NCBI RefSeq assembly: GCF_000383415.1
Contig: NZ_KB911257.1
Location: 286,558 to 350,557, forward strand
Direction: 5' to 3'
Length of the DNA: 64,000 nt
DNA from: Hyphomicrobium zavarzinii ATCC 27496
Lineage (GTDB): Bacteria; Pseudomonadota; Alphaproteobacteria; Rhizobiales; Hyphomicrobiaceae
Below, piece by piece: positions 3,258-21,468 of this stretch. Every line of letters begins with the position of its first letter. Position 1 is the stretch's first letter. The translations under genes and the position numbers were made by a program. The notes beneath the pieces are model-generated. The model saw only the letters and a list, made by a program, of their open reading frames with translations, was not told the DNA's origin and made no database searches.

Positions 3258-3832
3258 TGGCACTCTGCAAAGTCCGTCCCATGAAGCGAGCGGCCGGCGG
3301 CAAATCCGTCCCATCATCTGATTGGACGAAGCCCGCAAAAAGGGTGAGATCGGATGACGATCTCAACAACGGCCGTCCCATAACCGCAGGTGGACCGTCC
3401 AAACGCACCCTTGGGACCGTCCTGAGATCTCTGTTCACCCGGCCTGCCTCTATCGAGGTATCAAAGGCATGCGAGCAGCGGCAGCCGGCCGACACACGCC
3501 GATGGACGTTTGAATGGCCCACTGAGGTCTTGGTCCGACGTGCCACCTTGCCGCTCGACCAGTTCGCTGCTTGGCTGCGTGAACACGGCCGCCGCGAACT
3601 TACGCGCCGTCAGCTCGTTTCCCAATATTGGGAGTGGATCGAGCTCACCGAAACTCGACCCGCCTCCTGGCCTGCATTTGATCGCTCATTGCGAAACGCG
3701 GGTATCCAGAAGGTGCGCCTCACGCGCGGCACGCGGGAGTATCGGTATCGCCTCGCGCCGGCACGGCCGAAGCTCGTTGCCAGCACCGAAGCGCGCGACC
3801 AAGCGATGGGGGATCGTCGCAGCGTCGCCTGA
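3254..3832 (+). CDS. hypothetical protein, element-encoded
   Basis: Start taken at ATG 3254, which overlaps the stop of the HTH gene; a second ATG follows at once. About 192 residues: a basic low-complexity N-terminal half (Lys/Arg/Ser-rich) and a compact C-terminal part (about residues 90-165) with several Trp, Arg and aromatic residues, including 'RRWTFEWP' and 'SQYWEWIEL'. The basic charge suggests nucleic-acid binding, and such genes often sit between excisionase and replication genes in alphaproteobacterial prophages. I do not recognise a family. Confidence 0.6.
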   Translation: MMALCKVRPMKRAAGGKSVPSSDWTKPAKRVRSDDDLNNGRPITAGGPSKRTLGTVLRSLFTRPASIEVSKACEQRQPADTRRWTFEWPTEVLVRRATLPLDQFAAWLREHGRRELTRRQLVSQYWEWIELTETRPASWPAFDRSLRNAGIQKVRLTRGTREYRYRLAPARPKLVASTEARDQAMGDRRSVA

Positions 3833-5200: not shown

Positions 5201-5259
5201 TCGCATCGGTTCCAGAATTGCGAGTTGATTTCCCGCCAGTCAAACTCAGAAGGGACAAC

Positions 5260-5721
5260 ATGAACGAGCACCACGCATCGCAGGCCGCCGACCCTTGCGC
5301 TTTTACGACGGACTTTGCTGACAGCGAATACCGTTTTCGACTCAACATCGTTGGGCTTGAGGAGCTCGAAGAGAAGTGCGGTGTTGGCATGGGCGCGATC
5401 TACATGCGGCTACACAGCCCCAACTACACGCTTTCCGACGTGAGGGAGACGATCCGTCTCGGGCTCGTCGGCGGCGGCCTGCGGCCGGAACGCGCACTAA
5501 CTCTGGTCAAGCGCTACGTTGACGAACGCCCGATCGACGAAAGCTGGCTGCTCGCGCGAACGATCATCGGTGCAACCATGCACGGTGTTTTCACCGATCC
5601 GGCGACGGCGCCCGTTCTGGCGGCAGATGCCGAACCGGAGGAGGTGCCGGATGGTCCAGCTACACATTCGGTACTCTCCTCGGTGGGGAAATCTCGATTC
5701 GGCGCAAGGCAGCAGCCATGA
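5260..5721 (+). CDS. tail assembly chaperone, GTA gp10-like
   Basis: Start at ATG 5260 chosen because AGAAGGGA lies just upstream; an in-frame upstream start lacks such a site. 153 residues. The core (about residues 20-110) contains 'FRLNIVGLEELEEKCGVGMG', then 'SDVRETIRLGLVGGG' and a helical tail. This pattern (a short beta strand feeding an 'L..LEE' helix, then an 'IRLGL.GGG' loop) is that of the gene-transfer-agent gp10/phage tail chaperone family. It overlaps the next tail gene (ATGA), as expected in a tail operon. The expected major tail protein gene just upstream is absent. Confidence 0.72.
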   Translation: MNEHHASQAADPCAFTTDFADSEYRFRLNIVGLEELEEKCGVGMGAIYMRLHSPNYTLSDVRETIRLGLVGGGLRPERALTLVKRYVDERPIDESWLLARTIIGATMHGVFTDPATAPVLAADAEPEEVPDGPATHSVLSSVGKSRFGARQQP

Positions 5722-6143
5722 GCAAGATCAAGGGCGTCCGTGAGCTGAACCTGAAGCTGGGCAAGATCGGCCCGGCGGTGATCGCAGAGATCCGGCGCTC
5801 GCTTCGCCGCGGCTCGCAGAAGATCCAGAACACGGCAGCCTCCGGCATCATGGAAAGCGGATCGAAAAACAATCCAGGCCCATCGAAGCCTGGTGAATAT
5901 CCAGCAGGCAAATCAGCCGGCGGCTTGGCTAGCGGGATCACGAGCGTGGAAGCGTCCTCGCCCGGCGTGGTGCGCTTTGTGAACGGTGCTACTGCGCCCT
6001 ACGCAGAGCACCTCGAGTTCGGAACATCCAAGATGGCGCCGCGACCGTTCATGGCTCCGTCATTTGATAGGCATGTCGACGCCATCAAGACCGACATTCG
6101 TGCCGCTGTTAAGCGCGGCATCCGCAAGGGGGCATCACGCTAG
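5718..6143 (+). CDS. HK97 gp10-like tail completion protein
   Basis: 141 residues. The hallmark 'EHLEFGTSKMAPRPFMAPSF' near residues 96-115 is typical of HK97-gp10-like proteins, which cap or join the phage tail tube. A Gly/Pro-rich middle (residues 45-75) and the helical C-terminus also fit. It overlaps the chaperone gene and is followed nine bases later by the tape measure gene, so these form one transcription unit. Confidence 0.85.
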   Translation: MSKIKGVRELNLKLGKIGPAVIAEIRRSLRRGSQKIQNTAASGIMESGSKNNPGPSKPGEYPAGKSAGGLASGITSVEASSPGVVRFVNGATAPYAEHLEFGTSKMAPRPFMAPSFDRHVDAIKTDIRAAVKRGIRKGASR

Positions 6144-6151
6144 GAGCCAAC

Positions 6152-8662
6152 ATGGATCTCGAAAAACTCAACGTCGTGCTTGAACTTCAGCATCAAAAGT
6201 TCCTGAACAACCTGACGCAAGCTCAAGTGCAGACCTCTCGGCAGCTATCCGCAATCGAGAAGCGCTTTGCTGCGACGACGGCGCATGTCCGTCAGAGCTC
6301 AACGGCGATGGGCGCCGCGCTTGGCGGAATCGGTGCCTATGTTGGCGTTCGAGCGGTCACGGAATATGCCAACTCGTGGACCCGGCTGACCCGCTCGATC
6401 GATTCCGGGGGACGCGTCTTCGGCATCGCTCTGAAGCCAGCCGAGGAGCTGAACGAGCTTGCGAACGATGCCCGCATCGATGCCGAAGCCTACACCAAGA
6501 CGTACATTCGCACGGCGGCGGCGATCCGAGACTATGGATATGACAGTGACGTCGCTGCGAAGATCACTTCGACGCTGGCGAAGGCTCTCAAGCTAGGATC
6601 CGCCTCGGCGTCCGAACAGGCTTCCACTATCCTGCAGTTCTCGCAGGCCCTGCAGAAGGGCAAGCTGGACGGCGACGAATTCCGCACCGTCATGGAGAAC
6701 GCAGGCGTCATTCAGGAGCTACTCGCGGAGCGCCTCGGCGTGACCAAGGGCGAGATTGTCAAGATGGCCGCTGAGGGCAAGCTCCAGATTCGAGATCTCG
6801 CAGGAGCGATGCTCGACGGTGGTGCAAAAATCGAGCGCATCTTTCGACAGATGCCGGCGACAGTCGACGAAGCGTTTGTCGTGCTTCGAAACAATGTCGT
6901 CCAGTTTATCGGACACGCTGATCAGGCCACTGGTGCAAGCCAAGCGCTCGCGGACGGCATCGTCAAGATCTCGAAGAACCTGGACATCCTTGCCGTGGCG
7001 GTGGGTGCCGTTCTAGGCTCGGCCACCTTGCGGATGTCGGCTTTTGCCGCCGCAACGGTTGCTGCCGCAAATCCGCTTACACTCCTTGCCGCGGCCGTCG
7101 GTGCCCTGACCGTTGCATACGGTGTATTCGGCGAGGAGGTAAAAGTCACCGACGATGGTGTCGTAAGCCTCAAGGATGCGCTCACCGCTTTCGCGAAGGT
7201 TGCTGGAGAAGACGCCAACGTTGCGATCTCGAACATCACAAAGTCATTAGAGACCAGCCGCAAGGAGATATCGGCTAATAAGTCAGCTTGGTCTGAGTTT
7301 TCAGACCACGTGACAAAAAAAGCGAGCGAAATCGAGAGAGCTTTCAAGCTGTCGCTGCAGTTCCTGACGCAGACCGCCTCCCAGGGGATTCGCGACGGCA
7401 TGGGCCTCGGGCCAGATCGCTGGGAGCATGAAGCCCGTATGATCTCGGCGCAGCGCAGTCTCGCGCAGCGAAACTATGGCGCCGGGCTGGGCAACTACCT
7501 CGATGGCAAGCTCAACTATACGCCGAAGCCGCTAGGCGATGCGAAAAGTGACTCTAAGAAGAGCCAGTATGAGCGTGAGGTCGACGCGATCAAAAAACGC
7601 ACGGCCGCGCTCCAAGCCGAATTGCAGGTGATCGACGCCACCACCTATTCACGGGAGCGCTCGAAGGCTGCGGCCGAACTCCAGCACGCTCTGACCCTGA
7701 CCGCCGCCAAGGAGGGCCGGAAGATCACGAGCGAGGAGCAGGAAGCCGTCGGAAAGCTGGCGGACGCCTACGCCAAGGCGGCCGTCCAGATCGAGTTCCT
7801 GCAGAAGCTTCAGGACACGCGGCAAGAGAACGAGGATCTCGAGCATGAGATCGCTCTGACCGGTCTTTACGGAGAGGCGCTTGAGAAGGCTCGCAAGGAG
7901 CAGGAGTTGCTCATTGCCGCCAAGCGCGCTGGCATCGAGCTCACGTCCGAGCAGAAAGAGGAAATCAATCGTCTCGCGGACCAGAACGCACGCCTGCAGG
8001 AAACGCAGAAGCTGATCTCCGACGTGCGGGACCAGTCGCGCGACGCCCTGAAGGGTTTCATCACGGACCTGCGGGACGGTGCAAGCGCCACGGAAGCCCT
8101 CGGAAACGCTCTGACACGGATGTCCGACAAGCTGATCGATATGGCAGTCAACGGCCTCGTTGAGGCGGCGCTGGGACCGCTGTTCAAGGGCGGGCCGAAT
8201 AGCGCGATCGGAAACCTATTGGGCCTCAGCGGTGGCGACGTCGGCTTGGGATCGTGGGCACCGTTCGCCGACGGCGGTTACACCGGGCCAGGCGGCAAAA
8301 ATCAGCCCGCCGGCGTCGTCCACAAGGGCGAGGTGGTCTGGTCGCAGGATGACGTGGCGCGGGCAGGGGGTGTCGCCGCCGTAGAGGCGATGCGCCGTGG
8401 CATGCCTGGCTATGCGTCGGGCGGTCCTGTGGCAATTCCGACGATCAACGTTCCGAACGTGCCGACCGCAGTCACGCCCGTCAGGGGAGGCGGCGCTGGG
8501 CCTGTCGTGATGAACGTGACCATCAACGCACCGAACGCGACGCCGGCCGGCGTCGACGCGCTCAACAACACCACGTTGCCGCAGCTCAAGAAGCTGATCA
8601 ACCATGTCGTAGATGAGAAGTTCGTCCGGCAAGAGCGCTATCGCCGGCCGGGCGTCATCTAG
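6152..8662 (+). CDS. phage tail tape measure protein
   Basis: 836 residues. Residues about 60-240 carry the tape-measure N-terminal domain ('ALQKGKLDGDEFRTVMENAG', 'ERLGVTKGEIVKMAAEGKLQ'). Hydrophobic segments at about 275-325 are followed by long coiled coil (about 450-640). The C-terminal 'FADGGYTGPGG…VVHKGEVVW' region is the usual lambda GpH-like end. Length suggests a tail of moderate length, since tape measure size scales with tail length. The reading frame is intact despite the lack of head genes nearby, which argues for recent loss or continuing selection. Confidence 0.93.
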   Translation: MDLEKLNVVLELQHQKFLNNLTQAQVQTSRQLSAIEKRFAATTAHVRQSSTAMGAALGGIGAYVGVRAVTEYANSWTRLTRSIDSGGRVFGIALKPAEELNELANDARIDAEAYTKTYIRTAAAIRDYGYDSDVAAKITSTLAKALKLGSASASEQASTILQFSQALQKGKLDGDEFRTVMENAGVIQELLAERLGVTKGEIVKMAAEGKLQIRDLAGAMLDGGAKIERIFRQMPATVDEAFVVLRNNVVQFIGHADQATGASQALADGIVKISKNLDILAVAVGAVLGSATLRMSAFAAATVAAANPLTLLAAAVGALTVAYGVFGEEVKVTDDGVVSLKDALTAFAKVAGEDANVAISNITKSLETSRKEISANKSAWSEFSDHVTKKASEIERAFKLSLQFLTQTASQGIRDGMGLGPDRWEHEARMISAQRSLAQRNYGAGLGNYLDGKLNYTPKPLGDAKSDSKKSQYEREVDAIKKRTAALQAELQVIDATTYSRERSKAAAELQHALTLTAAKEGRKITSEEQEAVGKLADAYAKAAVQIEFLQKLQDTRQENEDLEHEIALTGLYGEALEKARKEQELLIAAKRAGIELTSEQKEEINRLADQNARLQETQKLISDVRDQSRDALKGFITDLRDGASATEALGNALTRMSDKLIDMAVNGLVEAALGPLFKGGPNSAIGNLLGLSGGDVGLGSWAPFADGGYTGPGGKNQPAGVVHKGEVVWSQDDVARAGGVAAVEAMRRGMPGYASGGPVAIPTINVPNVPTAVTPVRGGGAGPVVMNVTINAPNATPAGVDALNNTTLPQLKKLINHVVDEKFVRQERYRRPGVI

Positions 8663-8674
8663 GGAGGGTGCGAG

Positions 8675-8914
8675 ATGGCGAACGTCTTTCCGGAATCCGT
8701 TGCCTTTGCGGCGCTCTCCTTATCGCAAGAGCTCTGTATCACGATGTTGCGCAAGGGCCTCCTGACCCACGGCGACGTCGACGAGATATTCGCGAAGGCG
8801 GTTGAAGCGCAATCATCCATTGCCTCTCCCATCAACGATGGCGCAGCCGCTCTTCTCAAGGATCTTCAGCAGGCTATCGAATGGGAATGGCCTCGGGGGG
8901 CGCCTGGCGCATGA
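8675..8914 (+). CDS. hypothetical protein after tape measure gene
   Basis: 79 residues, mostly helical and mildly acidic, start preceded by AGGGAGGG. No motif recognised. It sits in the tail operon and overlaps the following gene by four bases, so it is likely translated, but its role is unknown. Confidence 0.6.
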   Translation: MANVFPESVAFAALSLSQELCITMLRKGLLTHGDVDEIFAKAVEAQSSIASPINDGAAALLKDLQQAIEWEWPRGAPGA

Positions 8915-9249
8915 ACAAGCCCATCCCGAAATCGGGGACGTCTCCCAATCCACCTGAATGGGACGTCCCGCCTCTGGCGCCATCGCCACCCTGGATGGTC
9001 ATGCCCAAGTTGAGCCGCTGGGAGCGCGTGGCGCTCTCGTTCCTCTCGAAACCGCTGCGCATGCAGTGCGGCGCCAAGACCCGCGCGGGCGCCTCATGTC
9101 AGGCGCCGGCAATGCCCAACGGCCGTTGTAAGCTCCACGGAGGGCGTTCCACCGGTCCTCTCTCGGATGCCGGCCGAGAAAGGATTGCGGCCGCTCAACG
9201 ACGGCGGTGGGCAACGTGGCGAGCCGAGCGCCATGCGCTTCAGCCTTGA
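8911..9249 (+). CDS. HGGxSTG-motif protein
   Basis: 112 residues; start at ATG 8911 overlapping the previous stop. A Pro-rich N-terminus is followed by 'CGAKTRAG', 'CQAPAMPNGRCKLHGGRSTG' and then 'GRERIAAAQRRRWATWRAER'. The Cys/His spacing and the HGGxSTG signature define a small family common in alphaproteobacterial prophages. It may bind a metal or DNA; its biochemical function is not established. Confidence 0.8.
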   Translation: MNKPIPKSGTSPNPPEWDVPPLAPSPPWMVMPKLSRWERVALSFLSKPLRMQCGAKTRAGASCQAPAMPNGRCKLHGGRSTGPLSDAGRERIAAAQRRRWATWRAERHALQP

Positions 9250-9303
9250 CCTATACTTGACGGAAACCGTCGCGCATCATGGGGTATTAGAGAGCGTCAG
9301 GAA

Positions 9304-9777: not shown

Positions 9778-10030
9778 TCGACTGGTGCTTTGCGCAGGGC
9801 CTGTCGCGCAAATCGACGAACGCGCTTCGTAAACTGGCGCTTGATTTTCCTCAGCTCTCCGCGGCGCCAACGCAGCATGCGGCGACTGCGACGCGAAAAC
9901 GCATCACACTCTATCCCAGCACTGCCGCGGTTGCCCATCATGGATACGTCGTCCCTCTAGGGCTAACAATCTATGCAACACGCCACGTTGCGCAACACCC
10001 TATACGGGTGAGGCTCGGTGTTGCGCACGA

Positions 10031-10073
10031 GGTTTCAGCCCGACTGGTTTCAGAAGAGGTTTCAGGTGAAACC
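10031..10073. repeat. array block with GGTTTCA core
   Basis: GGTTTCAG occurs at 10031, 10046 and 10058, and its reverse complement TGAAACC at 10067. The third copy and the inverted copy form a near-perfect palindrome (GGTTTCA-GG-TGAAACC). The inverted copy could pair with any of the three direct copies, so mutually exclusive hairpins are possible. Confidence 0.85.
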
Positions 10074-10090
10074 GGGGGCTGTGACGGGAG

Positions 10091-10134
10091 GGTTTCCGCC
10101 AGACTGGTTTCCGAGCCGGTTTCCAGCGGAAACC
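10091..10134. repeat. array block with GGTTTCC core
   Basis: GGTTTCC occurs at 10091, 10106 and 10118, with the inverted copy GGAAACC at 10128. Offsets between direct copies (15 and 12 bases) are identical to the preceding block, which starts exactly 60 bases earlier. The A-to-C change at the seventh core position is present in all three direct copies and is matched by T-to-G in the inverted copy, so pairing is preserved. Confidence 0.85.
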
Positions 10135-10376
10135 GGGGGGCGTCGGGTTCGGATGCGCACCAACGAGAGCGCACCACCCGAACGCACCAGCCCAAGCTGG
10201 GGGGCGGTTACAGGTCGGTTGCAGGTGGCAGGGGTGTGTGCAACCTCGTGGCGCGTGCCACCATGCGCGATCACCGGCACCCATTGCCGGAATTTGGGAT
10301 TGGCGGCATGCGATGCCGGTCTGCCGTGTGTCACCTGTTTCACGGGCAGGCGCGCGAGGCAGCGCCAGCGCGCCAA

Positions 10377-10430
10377 CCGGTCGGGCTCGGCCGGACGGGT
10401 CGGGTCGAGCCGGACGGGTTGCGCCCGACC
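10377..10430. repeat. array block with CCGGWCGGG core
   Basis: CCGGTCGGG at 10377 and CCGGACGGG at 10391 and 10410, followed by the inverted CCCGACC at 10424, which is complementary to the first copy. It is the same three-direct-plus-one-inverted layout as the GGTTTCA and GGTTTCC blocks but with an unrelated core. Confidence 0.75.
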
Positions 10431-10484
10431 GCCCACCCGATTCGTCCGCAAGAATTACGCCCGTAAATTTTGCCCCCGTTATTC

Positions 10485-10790
10485 TTACGGGGGTTCTGGC
10501 TTCCGGTCGCGGCGCGGCCTGATCCACCGCGCGCCGCTGCCTCGTGCGCCATCCTCGGGCTGGAGTTCCACGCCCGCCGCGAGAAGGGCAGCAACGATGC
10601 GATCCCAAACATCGGCGGAGACGTGGCCGTGCCGTCGGCTCGGCGAGACGCTGAACGGCCCGCCAATCTCGATCCGATGAACGGTGCGAGGCGTCACGCC
10701 TGCCTTCTCAGCCAGATCGGCGACCGTCAAGCTGGCGAGCGCTCGAGCCGCCGTGATCTGGCGGCCATCGAAGGTTGGAAATTCATCCAT
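10485..10790 (-). CDS. XRE-type transcriptional regulator
   Basis: 101 residues. 'ITAARALASLTVADLAEKAG' followed by 'VTPRTVHRIEIGG' (about residues 11-44) is an XRE/Cro helix-turn-helix, with a second helix pair (VWDRIVAALLAAGVEL) and a basic tail. It is divergent from the second recombinase across a 124-base gap that contains palindromic half-sites, so it probably represses itself and the recombinase. The stop codon lies inside the last hairpin of the repeat array, so its transcript would run into the array. Confidence 0.85.
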   Translation of the reverse strand: MDEFPTFDGRQITAARALASLTVADLAEKAGVTPRTVHRIEIGGPFSVSPSRRHGHVSADVWDRIVAALLAAGVELQPEDGARGSGARWIRPRRDRKPEPP

Positions 10791-10858: not shown

Positions 10859-10914
10859 TATATTGGATGTGACAAGAGGTGATTATCGCTACCTATCGGC
10901 TCAACGGGGAAGCC

Positions 10915-11994
10915 ATGAACTCGATCGTCGTCACCTACAATAACGGACAGGTCGCTCCGCACGCTGGTCTCTCGGAAAGCGCCCGGGCCTTTGCCGCGGC
11001 GTCGCTCGCCGAGAACACGCGGCGAGCCTACGCCGCGCAGTGGCGGCTCTGGACGGCCCACTGCCAGGCGAACGGCCTCACCGCTCTTCCTGCCGACACG
11101 ACGGCCGTGGCGAATTGGATCGCCCAGCGCGCAACGGAGGGCGACGTCGGCGGCAAGCGCCGCAAGGCCGGCGCGCGCGGCCAAGCGATCGCGACGCTCA
11201 GGACCGCGCTCGCCGCGATCGGCGCCGCGCATCAGGCCAACGGCATCGTGCTCGATACCGGCGCCGCCGAGTTGCGCATGGTCCTGAAAGGCATCCGCCG
11301 CGAGAAGACGGAAAAGATCGCCAAGGCCGCGCCGCTCCGCGCTGGGCTGCTCATGGAGGTGATCGCGGCTTTGGGCGACACGCCCCTCGAGGTTCGCGAT
11401 GCTGCCTTGCTGTCGCTCGGCTATGCGTTCGCGCGCCGCCGCTCCGAACTCGCTGGCCTCGATCTCGATCGCCTCGGCGACGGTGATGGCGTGCTTTCCA
11501 GCGATGCTCATGCTCTGACCGTCACCCTCATCCGGCACAAGACCCAAGCCGGTGAACCGCTGGTTTCGACCGTGCCCCGCGACGGAAGCGAAACCGCGGT
11601 GAAGGCGATCGAGCGCTGGGTAGCTCTCGCCGCCGTCAAATCGGGCGAACCGGTCCTGCGCCGAGTGCTCAAAGGCGGTAAGATCACCACCGAGCGCCTG
11701 CACCCGCAGAGCGTCACCGGCATCATCCAGCGCCGCGTTGCCGAGCACTTTATGCGCAAGGGCGTGCCGGCCGCCGTCGCCCAGCGCGAGGCCGAACTCT
11801 ATTCCGGCCACTCCCTCCGGCACGGCTTCTGCACCACGGCGGCTGAGGCGGGCGCCAGTGTCCAGGCGATCATGAGCGTCACCGGACACAAATCGGTCCC
11901 GATCGTCATGGGCTACACGGCCGCCGCAGATCGGGCGCGCATCAGCCCGCATCGGATCAAGGGCGTGGGGCTAACCTCGGCCGCTAAGCTTTAG
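10915..11994 (+). CDS. tyrosine recombinase (second, standalone type)
   Basis: Start at ATG 10915 preferred because GGGGAAG precedes it; a GTG 36 bases upstream in frame is possible. 359 residues. N-terminal SAM-like core-binding domain (about 20-110) and catalytic domain (about 135-345). The catalytic Arg lies in 'AFARRRSELAGL', the H-x-x-R in 'GHSLRHGF', the His in 'TGHKS' and the nucleophile Tyr in 'VMGYTAAADRA'. It lacks the DUF4102 arm domain of the first integrase and is only distantly related to it. It is divergent from the XRE regulator. Whether it acts on the repeat array, on a host site or on another element is unknown. Confidence 0.92.
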   Translation: MNSIVVTYNNGQVAPHAGLSESARAFAAASLAENTRRAYAAQWRLWTAHCQANGLTALPADTTAVANWIAQRATEGDVGGKRRKAGARGQAIATLRTALAAIGAAHQANGIVLDTGAAELRMVLKGIRREKTEKIAKAAPLRAGLLMEVIAALGDTPLEVRDAALLSLGYAFARRRSELAGLDLDRLGDGDGVLSSDAHALTVTLIRHKTQAGEPLVSTVPRDGSETAVKAIERWVALAAVKSGEPVLRRVLKGGKITTERLHPQSVTGIIQRRVAEHFMRKGVPAAVAQREAELYSGHSLRHGFCTTAAEAGASVQAIMSVTGHKSVPIVMGYTAAADRARISPHRIKGVGLTSAAKL

Positions 11995-12085: not shown

Positions 12086-12499
12086 ATGATCCTTTCACTG
12101 GATGATATCGACAAACTCCGGAGGTCGAGACCGAGGCGCTTGCTAAAGGTGGGCGAGCTTCCAAATGCGGTCAGGGAGGCCTTGGGGCTGTCGGTCCCTG
12201 ATGTGCACCTATCTACGGAGAGCCTGGAGCACATCAACAAGGATCATCCCGATGTGAATGACTTCGATCTGCTCCACCTGCCATTCGCCATCAAAAACGG
12301 ACTGCTTCTAAGGGAGAACAAGAAGCCATCGATCTTGCTGGCGTTCTACAAAGTCCCCGAGGACGAGCGCTACTACATTGCTGCGTTCAAGCTGGCCGAG
12401 AAGGGAAGTGAAATCTGGCTTAGTAGCTTCTACCGGGCGAAGAAAAATCAGCACATCAAGCTACGGCGCAAGGCGACCGTGTTGCAGGAGAGACGCTGA
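12086..12499 (+). CDS. candidate BECR-fold (RelE/Barnase-like) nuclease, phage type
   Basis: 137 residues. After a short helical N-terminus, 'VHLSTESLEHINKDHPD' is followed by 'LPFAIKNGLLLRENKKPSIL' and strands ending 'WLSSFYRAKKNQHIKLRRK'. The order (His-bearing helix, extended strands, then a final strand with Ser/Tyr/Arg/Lys) resembles the phage-associated Barnase/EndoU/ColicinE5/RelE nuclease families. In phages these domains are often fused to head proteins; here it stands alone, with no evident antitoxin next to it. The fold call is from pattern only. Confidence 0.45.
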   Translation: MILSLDDIDKLRRSRPRRLLKVGELPNAVREALGLSVPDVHLSTESLEHINKDHPDVNDFDLLHLPFAIKNGLLLRENKKPSILLAFYKVPEDERYYIAAFKLAEKGSEIWLSSFYRAKKNQHIKLRRKATVLQERR

Positions 12500-14110: not shown

Positions 14111-15346
14111 TTACTCCGCCGCCACGAGACGGTGGCACCTGCCGACGCGCTGGGCGGCGGGGATCAGGCCACGCTCGCGCATGTCCTTCAGCCACTTCGA
14201 CGCCGTGCCCTTGTTGACGTGGTGGGCGTCGGCGAGTGCGTCCTGGCTGTCGATGCTGTGGCCGAGCGCAAGGCGCGTGACCACGTCGCGCTCGAATTCA
14301 ACCCGCGATGACGGACGGTTGCCCCCGTTGCGCGGATTGTCGGGCTTCGGACCGCGACGGTTGCCGCCGTTGCCCGAGTTGCCGTCATCGGGGCGCTTCG
14401 GTTGCCCAGGGCCAACCGCGCCGTGGTTTCCCGAGTTGCCGCCGTTGTCGAGCAACCCGGCAACCGGGAACGACGACTGCAGGGTGTCCTTGACGCTCGG
14501 TTGCGCCAGTTGCCCGGCCCACGGTTTCCGAGCGTTCCAACGGTCGGCTTCGGTTTCCTCTCGCGGCTCGGCGAACAACGGTGCGCCGAACGTGGCAATC
14601 AGAACAGCCGCGAGGCCGAATGCCCAGGCCCAACCGCTGGCCGCATATACCTCGAACCACGTCGGCTCGGCCGGACGCGGCAGCGCATCGAGCTTGGCCT
14701 TGAGGCCGGGCAGCTTCTGCTCCAGCTCGATCTTGCGGATCGCGCCGGCCATTTCCTGCCGCAGTTCGAGGATCGGCTTGCAGGCCTCGAAGCTGTCCTG
14801 CCGGGTGACGTCGTTGCACTCCTTCGTGCGGCGGAACACCGTGCGATCGACCGGTGCTACGCTCATGGCCGCCTGAACCTCGGCCGGGGTGCGGGCCCCT
14901 TCGAGGCGTTTCCATTCCGCCGAGGCCTTGTCGTAGTCGGCCTTGGCGATGTCGTAGGCGGTGCGCTGGCCGCCCTCGTCGCCGGTCTTGCCGCGCTGGG
15001 CTTCGAGAAGCGTCAGAGCGAGCGCCGCGACGGAGACGGTGAGCAGCAGGAGCGCGATCGGGGCAGCGATGGTGCGCTGCCTTGCGAGCGCGCCGGGTTT
15101 GAATGCCACCCACGCAGCGCGAGCCTGCGAGAGCGACATGGCGATGGCGGCGAGGACGAGCACGACGCCCGCGATCGAAACCGTGGCTTCGAAGCCGAAG
15201 GCGGCGACGTTGACGGTGAAGTGCTCGAGCTGCATGCCGAGCCCGTAGGCGCGGAGTGCGTTGACGGACGCCTCGGCGATGATGGCCGCGCCGAGCGGCA
15301 AGTAGGCCCATGGCGGTACGCGCCAGGTCGTGGTATGCGTGGTCAT
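14111..15346 (-). CDS. four-helix membrane protein with GGN repeats and a C-terminal winged helix
   Basis: Start at ATG 15346 chosen because AGGAGTTG lies upstream; the frame stays open further but without such a site. 411 residues. Membrane segments at about 12-34, 45-68, 88-108 and 232-255. A polar loop between the third and fourth contains a helical region with two Cys (about 175-195). Then comes a low-complexity stretch with repeated 'NSGN' and 'GGNR' units (about 300-345). It ends in a helix-turn-helix-like domain ('SIDSQDALADAHHVNKGTAS', then 'KWLKDMRERGLIPAA'). A membrane anchor joined to a DNA-binding tail is unusual for an element protein. Not recognised as a family. Confidence 0.7.
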   Translation of the reverse strand: MTTHTTTWRVPPWAYLPLGAAIIAEASVNALRAYGLGMQLEHFTVNVAAFGFEATVSIAGVVLVLAAIAMSLSQARAAWVAFKPGALARQRTIAAPIALLLLTVSVAALALTLLEAQRGKTGDEGGQRTAYDIAKADYDKASAEWKRLEGARTPAEVQAAMSVAPVDRTVFRRTKECNDVTRQDSFEACKPILELRQEMAGAIRKIELEQKLPGLKAKLDALPRPAEPTWFEVYAASGWAWAFGLAAVLIATFGAPLFAEPREETEADRWNARKPWAGQLAQPSVKDTLQSSFPVAGLLDNGGNSGNHGAVGPGQPKRPDDGNSGNGGNRRGPKPDNPRNGGNRPSSRVEFERDVVTRLALGHSIDSQDALADAHHVNKGTASKWLKDMRERGLIPAAQRVGRCHRLVAAE

Positions 15347-15523
15347 GCTTTCAACTCCTAGCTGGGTTTGAAGCGTGAGGCTCACCGCCCGGCATTGCAG
15401 TGCCGGGGCTAACGGTGGGCCTTTTGCGTGAAGATCGATATCCGAGCCGCTTGCCGCTGCCTGCTGACCGAAGTCTCGCGCTGGTTTGCGGGGCGGGAAG
15501 GTCAATACCCCTCAGAAATCACC

Positions 15524-20457: not shown

Positions 20458-21468
20458 TCAGGACGCGTCCAGGCCCGTTGCCGCACACACCACGGCCGCC
20501 AAGCGATCGAGGTGATTGCCGTCGAGGGGCTCGAGGCTCGCGGCGAGCGACGCCAGTCCGTCCGCGTCGGCCGAGGCGAGGGGGAGCGTGGCGAGCCAGC
20601 GCTCGGCCACGAGGCCGGCGACGGCTTCGTCATCGCGCGCGGGCTTCACCTTGTCCGGCACCAGTGCGACGGCGGGACGGCGGGAGAGGGCTGCTTCCGT
20701 CATCATCGACATGGAGTCGCTCGTCACCAGGACGAGGTCGCAATCGAACGATCTCTCGATGGAGCCGGGCCCGGCCGTGCGGAAGTCGATCAGCGACACC
20801 GCGCCTGCCAGCTTCCCGGCCAGCGGCAGCACGTGATCGTAGGCAGCGGACGGCGTGCGCGGGGAGGTGACGATGGTGAGGCGGCAGCCGAGCTTTTCGA
20901 CAAGCGCCTCCGCGAGAGACGCGAGGCGGCGCCAGTCGTCCGGCTCGAAGGCCGCGTACCACGTCGGGCCGCCGATCAGAATGCTGACGCGCGCGCCCCG
21001 CATGTCGGCAGCGCTTTGGATGGGGCGGGGAAGGGGAACGCGATCCGGATCGAAAGGCGTCGGTTTCGGACCGGCAACGACCTTCGGCGGCTCGGCAACC
21101 GAGGCGTAGGGCGTCAGCACCAGACGGAAACGGTCCAGCGCGAAGCCGCGCGTGGAGCCGCTGAAGACATTCGGCACGTTCCAGATCCGCGCGAGGCCCA
21201 CATTGGCCGCGAGCGTGGCGCCGCCCGCGGAAACGATGATGTCGGGCTTCTCCATGCGTCCGGGATCGACGCCATGCACGGCGGGAAGAAACCAACCAGG
21301 CGGCAGCAGACGGCCGAGCTTCGGCACCAACGCCTTGGGAAGCGGCAGGCGCAAGCCGATCTCGAGGCGATCAACGACGATGGGGCCCCGGCGGCTCAGC
21401 GAGGCCACGACGCCTTCGCTTTGCCGATAATGGCCGGGACGGCCGTCGGAGATCAGGAGCACGCGCAC
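20458..21468 (-). CDS. ELM1/GtrOC1-family putative glycosyltransferase
   Basis: 336 residues from a GTG start. The opening 'VLLISDGRPGHYRQSEGVV' and the later 'PDIIVSAGGATLAANVGLAR', 'SILIGGPTW' and 'LVTSDSMSMMTEAALSRRPA' are the conserved blocks of bacterial proteins related to plant mitochondrial fission protein ELM1. The fold is that of GT-B glycosyltransferases, with the 'TSDSMSMMTEA' motif at the nucleotide-sugar site. The substrate in bacteria is not known; an envelope-glycan role is a reasonable inference. It stands upstream of, and in the same direction as, the MscS gene. Confidence 0.85.
   Translation of the reverse strand: MRVLLISDGRPGHYRQSEGVVASLSRRGPIVVDRLEIGLRLPLPKALVPKLGRLLPPGWFLPAVHGVDPGRMEKPDIIVSAGGATLAANVGLARIWNVPNVFSGSTRGFALDRFRLVLTPYASVAEPPKVVAGPKPTPFDPDRVPLPRPIQSAADMRGARVSILIGGPTWYAAFEPDDWRRLASLAEALVEKLGCRLTIVTSPRTPSAAYDHVLPLAGKLAGAVSLIDFRTAGPGSIERSFDCDLVLVTSDSMSMMTEAALSRRPAVALVPDKVKPARDDEAVAGLVAERWLATLPLASADADGLASLAASLEPLDGNHLDRLAAVVCAATGLDAS

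Follow-up and report, generated by a model that had tools for sequence, protein, structure and literature searches.

Analysis of a 64,000-nt stretch of the Hyphomicrobium zavarzinii ATCC 27496 genome (hereafter the window) revealed an array of short repeated words which, judging from sequence comparisons, is probably a set of alternative packaging-initiation sites of several specificities that would let one satellite be packaged by several helper phages. According to this explanation, phages with terminase small subunits (TerS) of the phrog_1206 family would mark their packaging starts with words placed inside the terS gene (pac-like sites), and the helix-turn-helix (HTH) motif of one TerS type would recognize the GGT-led words carried by most blocks of the array. 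A satellite devoid of terminase would need a packaging mark, and several marks would permit the use of several phages: the TerS-TerL of more than one helper could load the element via blocks of several specificities.

The array is located at about 9975-10445 of the window (no strand assigned) and is distinguished by six repeated GGT words and by the density of GGT/ACC trinucleotides. The original prediction had placed about ten blocks at 9789-10493, spaced by some 55-65 nt. The blocks are real, but by eye they number about seven, a spacing of 60 nt applies to blocks 2-3, and the segment 9789-9970 is blockless, with one GGT/ACC in 182 nt. Block 1 (9975-10025) contains the word GGTGTTGC (GCAACAC) in two copies on one strand (9975 and 9992) and an inverted copy at 10018; this word is also present in terS of locus L257 and, from position 3335, in the Hyphomicrobium locus L034. 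Blocks 2 (10031-10074) and 3 (10091-10135), both on the forward strand, consist of three copies of GGTTTCA (10031, 10046, 10058) and of GGTTTCC (10091, 10106, 10118), respectively, with spacings of 15 and 12 nt in each case, followed by inverted copies at 10067 and 10128. Block 4 (10155-10189, reverse strand) has two copies of GGTGCGC plus GGTGCGT, while block 5 (10206-10262) comprises GGTTACA, GGTTGCA and GGTGGCA together with inverted GGTTGCA and GGTGGCA. Two copies of TGCCGG (10285, 10314) and an inverted one (10274) form the imperfect hairpin of block 6 (10273-10320), and block 7 (10379-10430) carries GGTCGGG at 10379 and 10398, inverted at 10424, with a counterpart (GGTCGGA/GGTCGGC) at 3464-3515 of L034. 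Blocks 1 and 5-7 were not assigned to a strand. Block 6 is the exception among the array words, which in GGT orientation read GGTGTTGC, GGTTTCA, GGTTTCC, GGTGCGC, GGTTGCA/GGTGGCA and GGTCGGG.

Direct plus inverted copies, as originally described, were confirmed for the cores GCAACAC, GGTTTCA, GGTTTCC and TGCCGG, and likewise for GGTCGGG. The remaining proposed cores proved different: GCGCACC and CCGGACGGG each have two copies, none inverted, GGTTGCAG has a single exact occurrence, accompanied by GGTTACAG, GGTGGCAG and inverted TGCAACC, and CCCCCGT (10473/10487) belongs to one terminator-like hairpin (10469-10496, no strand assigned) at the end of the XRE gene, which was not counted as a site.

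Six distinct GGT-led words are repeated within 80 nt in the array, in 18 copies, and neither figure was reached by any of 1000 dinucleotide shuffles. A 7-mer with three direct and one inverted copy inside 70 nt occurs twice in the 64 kb, both times in the array, and was absent from 200 shuffles of the array region. The number of GGT/ACC trinucleotides at 9960-10500 is 36, compared with a mean of 13.9 (sd 4.2, maximum 29) for 313 tiles. Three of the known repeat classes considered at the outset do not fit: each block has its own word, where a CRISPR array would have a constant repeat; the blocks lie only about 40-65 nt apart, where an integron attC array would have gene cassettes between its sites; and there are six different words, where iterons would share one.

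The element that carries the array is best read, from its sequence, as a phage satellite, or else as a prophage remnant resembling one. Behind tRNA-Ser (1049-1138), the presumed integration site, there follow the tyrosine integrase of the element (1309-2538, identified with Pfam), the tail tube (5218-5721), tail completion (5718-6143) and tail tape measure (6152-8662) proteins, an HGG-motif protein (8881-9249), the array, an XRE-type HTH protein (10485-10790) and a second tyrosine recombinase (10879-11994); all genes, tRNA-Ser included, are on the forward strand except the XRE gene. No terminase, portal or capsid genes were found among the scanned ORFs. The sole large terminase (TerL, phrog_2) hit of this genome is on contig C4, the window being on C3; the sole phrog_1206 hit, also on C4, is weak and is read as a GTA-type TerS, and a phage-type phrog_1206 TerS was not found in the genome. 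A search for a repeat of tRNA-Ser (attR) gave no clear right attachment site.

A relative of this element was found in a Hyphomicrobium MAG (G351, the same record as L034), in which the integrase (91%) is likewise situated directly behind the same tRNA and is accompanied by DnaB and primosomal genes, a tape measure gene and, upstream of the array, the HGG gene. The replication genes are clear only in G351. Its array is shorter, with GGTGTTGC, GGTCGGA/C and a pair of GGTTTC words; the number of blocks thus varies among relatives. The G351 array has three distinct repeated words (reached by 4/1000 shuffles) in seven copies (0/1000). A tblastx survey of the element boundaries was noisy and was used only for the strong G351 matches.

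Relatives of the second recombinase occur at 20 places in 18 genomes, and among the 15 regions scanned blocks were present in G351 alone. In addition, locus L056 has the recombinase and, by eye, an XRE-like stretch, but no blocks; the suggestion that the array is kept by the recombinase/XRE module is thus not borne out. HGG-gene relatives were detected in 27/397 genomes (30 loci scanned), with no array in the stretches behind the gene at eight loci, and integrase relatives in 7/102 genomes, with no array in stretches scanned from five further genomes. One dense stretch met in this search turned out to be a glycine-rich gene. A motif like GCGCRTCATGGGG, which may be a regulatory site, was noticed behind or near HGG-motif genes, at about 9270-9290 of the window and in L078, as well as, with mismatches, in L070 and L034. 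Right behind the recombinase, at 12086-12499, there is a weak match, below the Pfam cut-off, to PBECR3, a phage-borne nuclease-toxin-like domain.

Block 2 of the array is related to phage terS genes. The array DNA matched 20 of 397 genomes of the order, the own genome included, and the best match outside the latter (92% over 37 nt, in G354) lies inside a prophage gene that PHROGs assigns to the terminase small subunit (phrog_1206, 8.3e-52). Block 2 is 88.9% identical over 45 nt to terS of L203/L243 and 91.9% over 37 nt to terS of L242, and in one frame it reads EVSARLVSEEVS, like the G354 terS; block 3 gave weak matches (E 1.6), to terS of L162 and L442. When the array was compared by blastn with 2.36 Mb of phage loci, 12 of the 22 hits fell in the terS word region, which constitutes 1.9% of the set, whereas five control stretches gave 0, 0, 0, 1 and 1 such hits; strong terS hits came from block 2 alone and block 3 contributed two weak ones. 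No match of the array was found by blastn among phage or plasmid records. By eye, window positions 14111-15505 and L241 1750-2880 (the G354 prophage with the matching terS) encode a common C-terminus (..SKWLKDM..LIPAAQRVGRCHRLVAA).

TerS relatives were collected by homology from 35 loci, the best 80 of 572 relatives and 11 of 55 phage records. In most of the terS genes collected, a word recurs at least three times immediately downstream of the codons for the HTH, and in many cases an inverted copy comes next. A GGTNNN word in at least three copies is present in 92 of the 116 homology-found TerS and missing from 24, and the copy number in phage terS is mostly 3-6. Any 6-mer in at least four copies was found in 49/76 TerS windows, 35 of which had been found with the GGTTTC pattern, versus 68/8898 other windows of the same loci. 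The GGTTTC pattern alone matched 32/297 genomes of the order (own included), its reversed control matching in many too, and at least 120 stretches of viral contigs, where most of those listed looked, by eye, like coding repeats. A scan for 6-mer clusters that dropped the GGT rule was too noisy, and a PDB sequence search with TerS gave two meaningless hits (E 0.65 and 0.91).

Which word a terS gene carries varies from phage to phage, in step with the recognition helix of its TerS (residues numbered as in G354 TerS). Among all 146 TerS, with words counted from two copies upwards, D39 T40 R43 is associated with GGTTCG in 49/50 cases, H T N with GGTTTC in 34/34 (a count inflated by the GGTTTC pattern search), H G N with GGTATC in 13/13, E G R with GGTACG in 8/8 and H T Q with GGTTGC in 4/4. 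Rarer triplets have words of their own: E A R (L253) GTGCGC and D K R (L256) GTCCGC, neither of them GGT-led throughout, H V G (L248) GGTTACC, P A L (L264) GGTAAA and P S S (L257) GCAACAC. Departures comprise one D T R with GGTCGC, E T R and E S R (L141) with GGTGCG, RAQ with GGTTGC or GGTTCG, and H T I (L213) and H T G (L307), both pattern-found and also with GGTTTC; when residue 40 is A, base 4 may be G, T or A, depending on context.

When the 44 distinct helix-word pairs, which take in pattern-found loci, were permuted, none of 2000 permutations reached the association of residue 40 with base 4 or with base 5, or that of residues 39 and 43 with either base 5 or base 6. The links of residue 41 to base 5 (0/2000) and of residue 38 to base 4 (1/2000) also passed, residue 39 gave 14/2000 at base 4, and residues 36, 37, 42, 44, 45 and 46 gave at least 79/2000 at every base. 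Among homology-found TerS, pairs with the same triplet shared the word in 836/836 cases at 80% identity or more, 228/230 at 60-80%, 29/30 at 45-60% and 97/97 at 25-45%, whereas for pairs with different triplets the corresponding values were 0/56, 1/23, 42/538 and 16/1732. The three same-triplet exceptions (L365 versus L366 and L247; L265 versus L320) can be read as one word taken on its two strands. Single-linkage collapse at 60% left 32 clusters and 26 cluster-triplet-word rows, in which E G R goes with GGTACG in six clusters, D T R with GGTTCG in three and H T N with GGTTTC in two; one cluster of 22 TerS includes four helix types and four words. The natural pair L404 and L436 is 87.9% identical and yet differs in helix and word. 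Among named phages, HK639 has a TerS of the EGR type, PseuP_222 one of the DTR type and Acidovorax phage AP1 one of the HGN type, and the G354 prophage has the HTN type.

The word is visible even in synonymous codons. For valine in V-S/V-R pairs of the word region, TerS with T at residue 40 use GTT 163, GTG 25, GTC 14 and GTA 6 times, and those with G at this residue use GTA 50, GTG 3 and GTT 1 times (GTT:GTA 163:6 versus 1:50, Fisher p 1.5e-41, a value that ignores relatedness). In a downstream control the bias is much weaker (106:17 and 23:21, p 1.4e-5, again ignoring relatedness). Since the same dipeptides have different codons, this choice is not made by the protein. An AlphaFold2 model of TerS (21 sequences; pLDDT about 90 over residues 11-50, pTM 0.42) has helices at 14-23, 28-35 and 39-49, and the modelled helix 39-49 would place residues 39, 40 and 43 at the opening of the third, recognition, helix.

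The terS kinship of block 2, together with a word that follows the recognition helix down to synonymous Val codons, makes it very probable that the array words are TerS binding sites, i.e. predicted packaging sites; the "library of binding sites" of the original prediction survives in this putative form, several array words matching TerS words of phages. GTGCGC of block 4 is the word of the TerS of L253 (helix EAAIRK), GGTTGC of block 5 that of TerS with helices HTQ and RAQ, and GTGCGC and GCAACAC (L257) are represented by one TerS each. Counterparts of block 6 (TGCCGG) and block 7 (GGTCGGG) were not found among the TerS words gathered, nor were GGTCGG and GGTGGC in the TerS word set. Membership of the window words in a strict 12-word TerS set (2/6: GGTTTC and GGTTGC) is not significant, because 16/43 words in the other tiles of the first 20 kb are also members; the in-set number was reached by 11/1000 shuffles. 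For G351 the values were 1/3 versus 2/33 in other tiles, and 92/1000 shuffles.

Scanning of the fetched loci for different repeated GGT words revealed a further array in L198, a stretch of a 21.9-kb viral contig (G793), with GGTTTCC (three copies), GGTTCGC (four), GGTACGC (two), a GGTGCGC-like word and GGTATCC (three) within 300 nt. By blastn, L198 matched one phage record, phiAH14b (75.6%, 2e-18), and nothing in plasmids or E. coli. In phiAH14b, positions 14207-14770 contain GGTATCC, GGTGCGC, five copies of GGTTCGC and three of GGTTTCC. In these two arrays membership in the strict set is high: 4/5 words in G793 versus 9/77 in other tiles, and 5/6 in phiAH14b versus 4/41, with 0/1000 shuffles in both cases. 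The repeats TTTCACGC and GTGTAACAG of the phiAH14b array (L537, 14431-14495) occur in no TerS-set word and are possible sites for other TerS families.

A pattern taken from the L198-phiAH14b overlap (inverted GGTTCGC followed by two GGTTTCC) matched ten viral stretches, L198 among them. By eye, L198, L539, L543, L544, L545, L546 and L547 have multi-word arrays, L540 has a partial one, and L541 and L542 have none. In L539-L547 two of the words are present by construction of the pattern, and GGTATC, GGTACG, GGTGCG or GGTTGC occur on top of these. A two-word pattern (GGTTTC..GGTTCGC) matched 48 viral stretches and 15/318 genomes, and no array stood out among the matches listed. TerL (phrog_2) was present in G796, G800 (55-56 kb) and phiAH14a, and was not found in phiAH14b or in G793, G797, G798, G799, G801 and G802, satellite-sized viral records (15-24 kb) that may be fragments. 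The ten scanned ORFs of G793 include integrase, Rha-like regulator, primase, tape measure and tail assembly genes. The L198 and phiAH14b arrays are homologous (75.6%), and the arrays of phiAH14b and the viral contigs may represent one Pseudomonas-type group beside the Hyphomicrobium one. The multi-word arrays of L539 and L545 lie in 55-56 kb records with a large terminase, either full phages or a satellite beside a prophage.

Among the elements with arrays, mobilization by a helper has been reported only for phiAH14b, a 16.8-kb element of Pseudomonas sp. ANT_H14; according to the available text (PMC4936722), it is packaged in particles that consist of phiAH14a proteins, the mechanism probably being headful, and its authors identified no terminase gene in it. 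Like the window element, phiAH14b has several GGT words in one stretch; it differs in its Gammaproteobacterial host and in the family of the helper TerS candidate, and the available text of PMC4936722 does not mention the array. The TerS candidate of phiAH14a belongs to phrog_546, not phrog_1206, and no GGT word cluster was found near it in the 49 of 55 kb read, so that no word match between helper and array emerged for phiAH14a. The phiAH14a word may be among the unassigned repeats of phiAH14b, or phiAH14a packaging may not need the array. The only clusters of this type in the 49 kb of phiAH14a (L538) are three GGTCGG (the word of block 7) at 21257-21341, in a replication gene, and three GGTGAC at 3563-3639.

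Several components of this explanation have precedents. In the available parts of the sources, a review considers the mode of TerS-DNA binding unclear and controversial (PMC9611059); the P22 pac is one 22-bp sequence in the TerS gene, the pac site of SPP1 comprises three groups of direct repeats where its terS begins, and SF6 TerS shows little sequence preference (PMC7672466, PMC9611059, PMC4737164). Lambda-type cosB has three TerS sites (R3, R2, R1), one of them opposite, contacted by a recognition helix with a genetically defined residue-base contact (PMC9026076). All of these are already known, as is the binding of PaP3 TerS to its cos DNA, and packaging in the F116-like phage phiC725A seems to start close to the terminase genes (PMC5217972, available text). 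As in headful pac systems (P22, SPP1), the phrog_1206 phage words sit in terS and are repeated; unlike what these sources give for P22 and SF6, they are repeated short words that follow the helix, and the array joins several such words outside terS. Lambda differs from the window array, on the same partial sources, in its winged-HTH TerS, its 16-bp sites beside cosN and its single specificity per phage. PICI, SaPI and P4-type satellites have an integrase, replication genes and packaging by a helper, features that the proposed satellite would share; enteric PICIs redirect TerS with the protein Rpp, PICI-A is without repeated R sequences, and a multi-specificity array for such satellites is not mentioned in the available text (PMC9026076). 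Neither a TerS word code nor an array of several specificities was described in what our own literature search listed, a search that reached few subscription papers and preprints.

On balance, we incline towards a broader, joint reading, in which satellites of Alpha- and Gammaproteobacteria would hold modular libraries of TerS sites from different phages, serving several unrelated helpers, and a simple residue-to-base code of TerS would predict pac words and helper range. In the proposed code, T or G at residue 40 would specify T or A at base 4, respectively, and N, R, Q or L at residue 43 would specify T, C, G or A at base 5; for A and K at residue 40 the assignments come from a small number of sequences and vary with context. 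We infer here that TerS binds the words, that this binding would start packaging and that several words would mean several helpers. A readable helix-to-word code would allow packaging sites and compatible helper-satellite pairs to be predicted. Multi-specificity arrays, if true, would spare a satellite the redirecting protein when it uses several helpers, and would account for genomic repeat blocks whose diversity of sequence otherwise looks strange.

The same binding logic, and the several copies in both orientations, would also suit a decoy array, whose blocks titrate TerS of competing phages and hinder their packaging without packaging the element itself; PICIs are described as hindering helper packaging via a protein that redirects TerS (PMC9026076, available text). 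We consider this improbable: in single copy, a short array would have little titrating effect unless the element is replicated, and phages keep a similar copy number in their own terS. The idea that the blocks are neutral debris, i.e. decayed terS pieces homogenized by slippage and template switching, draws on the terS-like reading frame retained in block 2, but different words also stand side by side in phiAH14b and in seven viral contigs, eight records in all that are partly kin to one another, and the strict-set memberships in G793 and phiAH14b were matched by no shuffle, which renders it very unlikely.

A multi-hairpin RNA with competing stems, raised in the original prediction, appears equally unlikely. 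The array strand does fold better than shuffled sequences (z -4.59, 0/100 as good), and GGTCGGG/CCCGACC in the window versus GGTCGGA/TCCGACC in L034 is a paired change, but the inverted copies would give the folding excess. Moreover, RNA structure does not explain why the word in terS, down to its synonymous Val codons, goes with the recognition helix of the TerS encoded there; three blocks, namely GGTTTCC in phiAH14b and GGTTTCC and GGTACGC in L198, have direct copies only; and Rfam at gathering score detected two tRNAs in the window and no match at the array. Finally, the position of the array between the HGG gene and the XRE/recombinase genes could suggest that the blocks serve the element's own regulator, XRE or recombinase, as iterons or operators, and repeats adjoining genes of DNA-binding proteins are common. 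Such sites are hardly to be expected here, given that the words differ between blocks and that G351 alone among the 15 recombinase regions has blocks.

Repeats of other kinds were also noticed. A short viral contig (L201, positions 1-46) has GGTTACCA and three GGTTTCCA upstream of a seemingly ParB-like gene, and several GGTTTCCA-type words in both orientations occur at 4575-4740 of L111, in a 49-kb viral contig with no phrog_1206 match. In L468 (G220:C7, 4896-4965), four GGTGAA, two of them inverted, are located inside a replication-like ORF, an arrangement resembling iterons inside a rep gene, such as those of lambda O.
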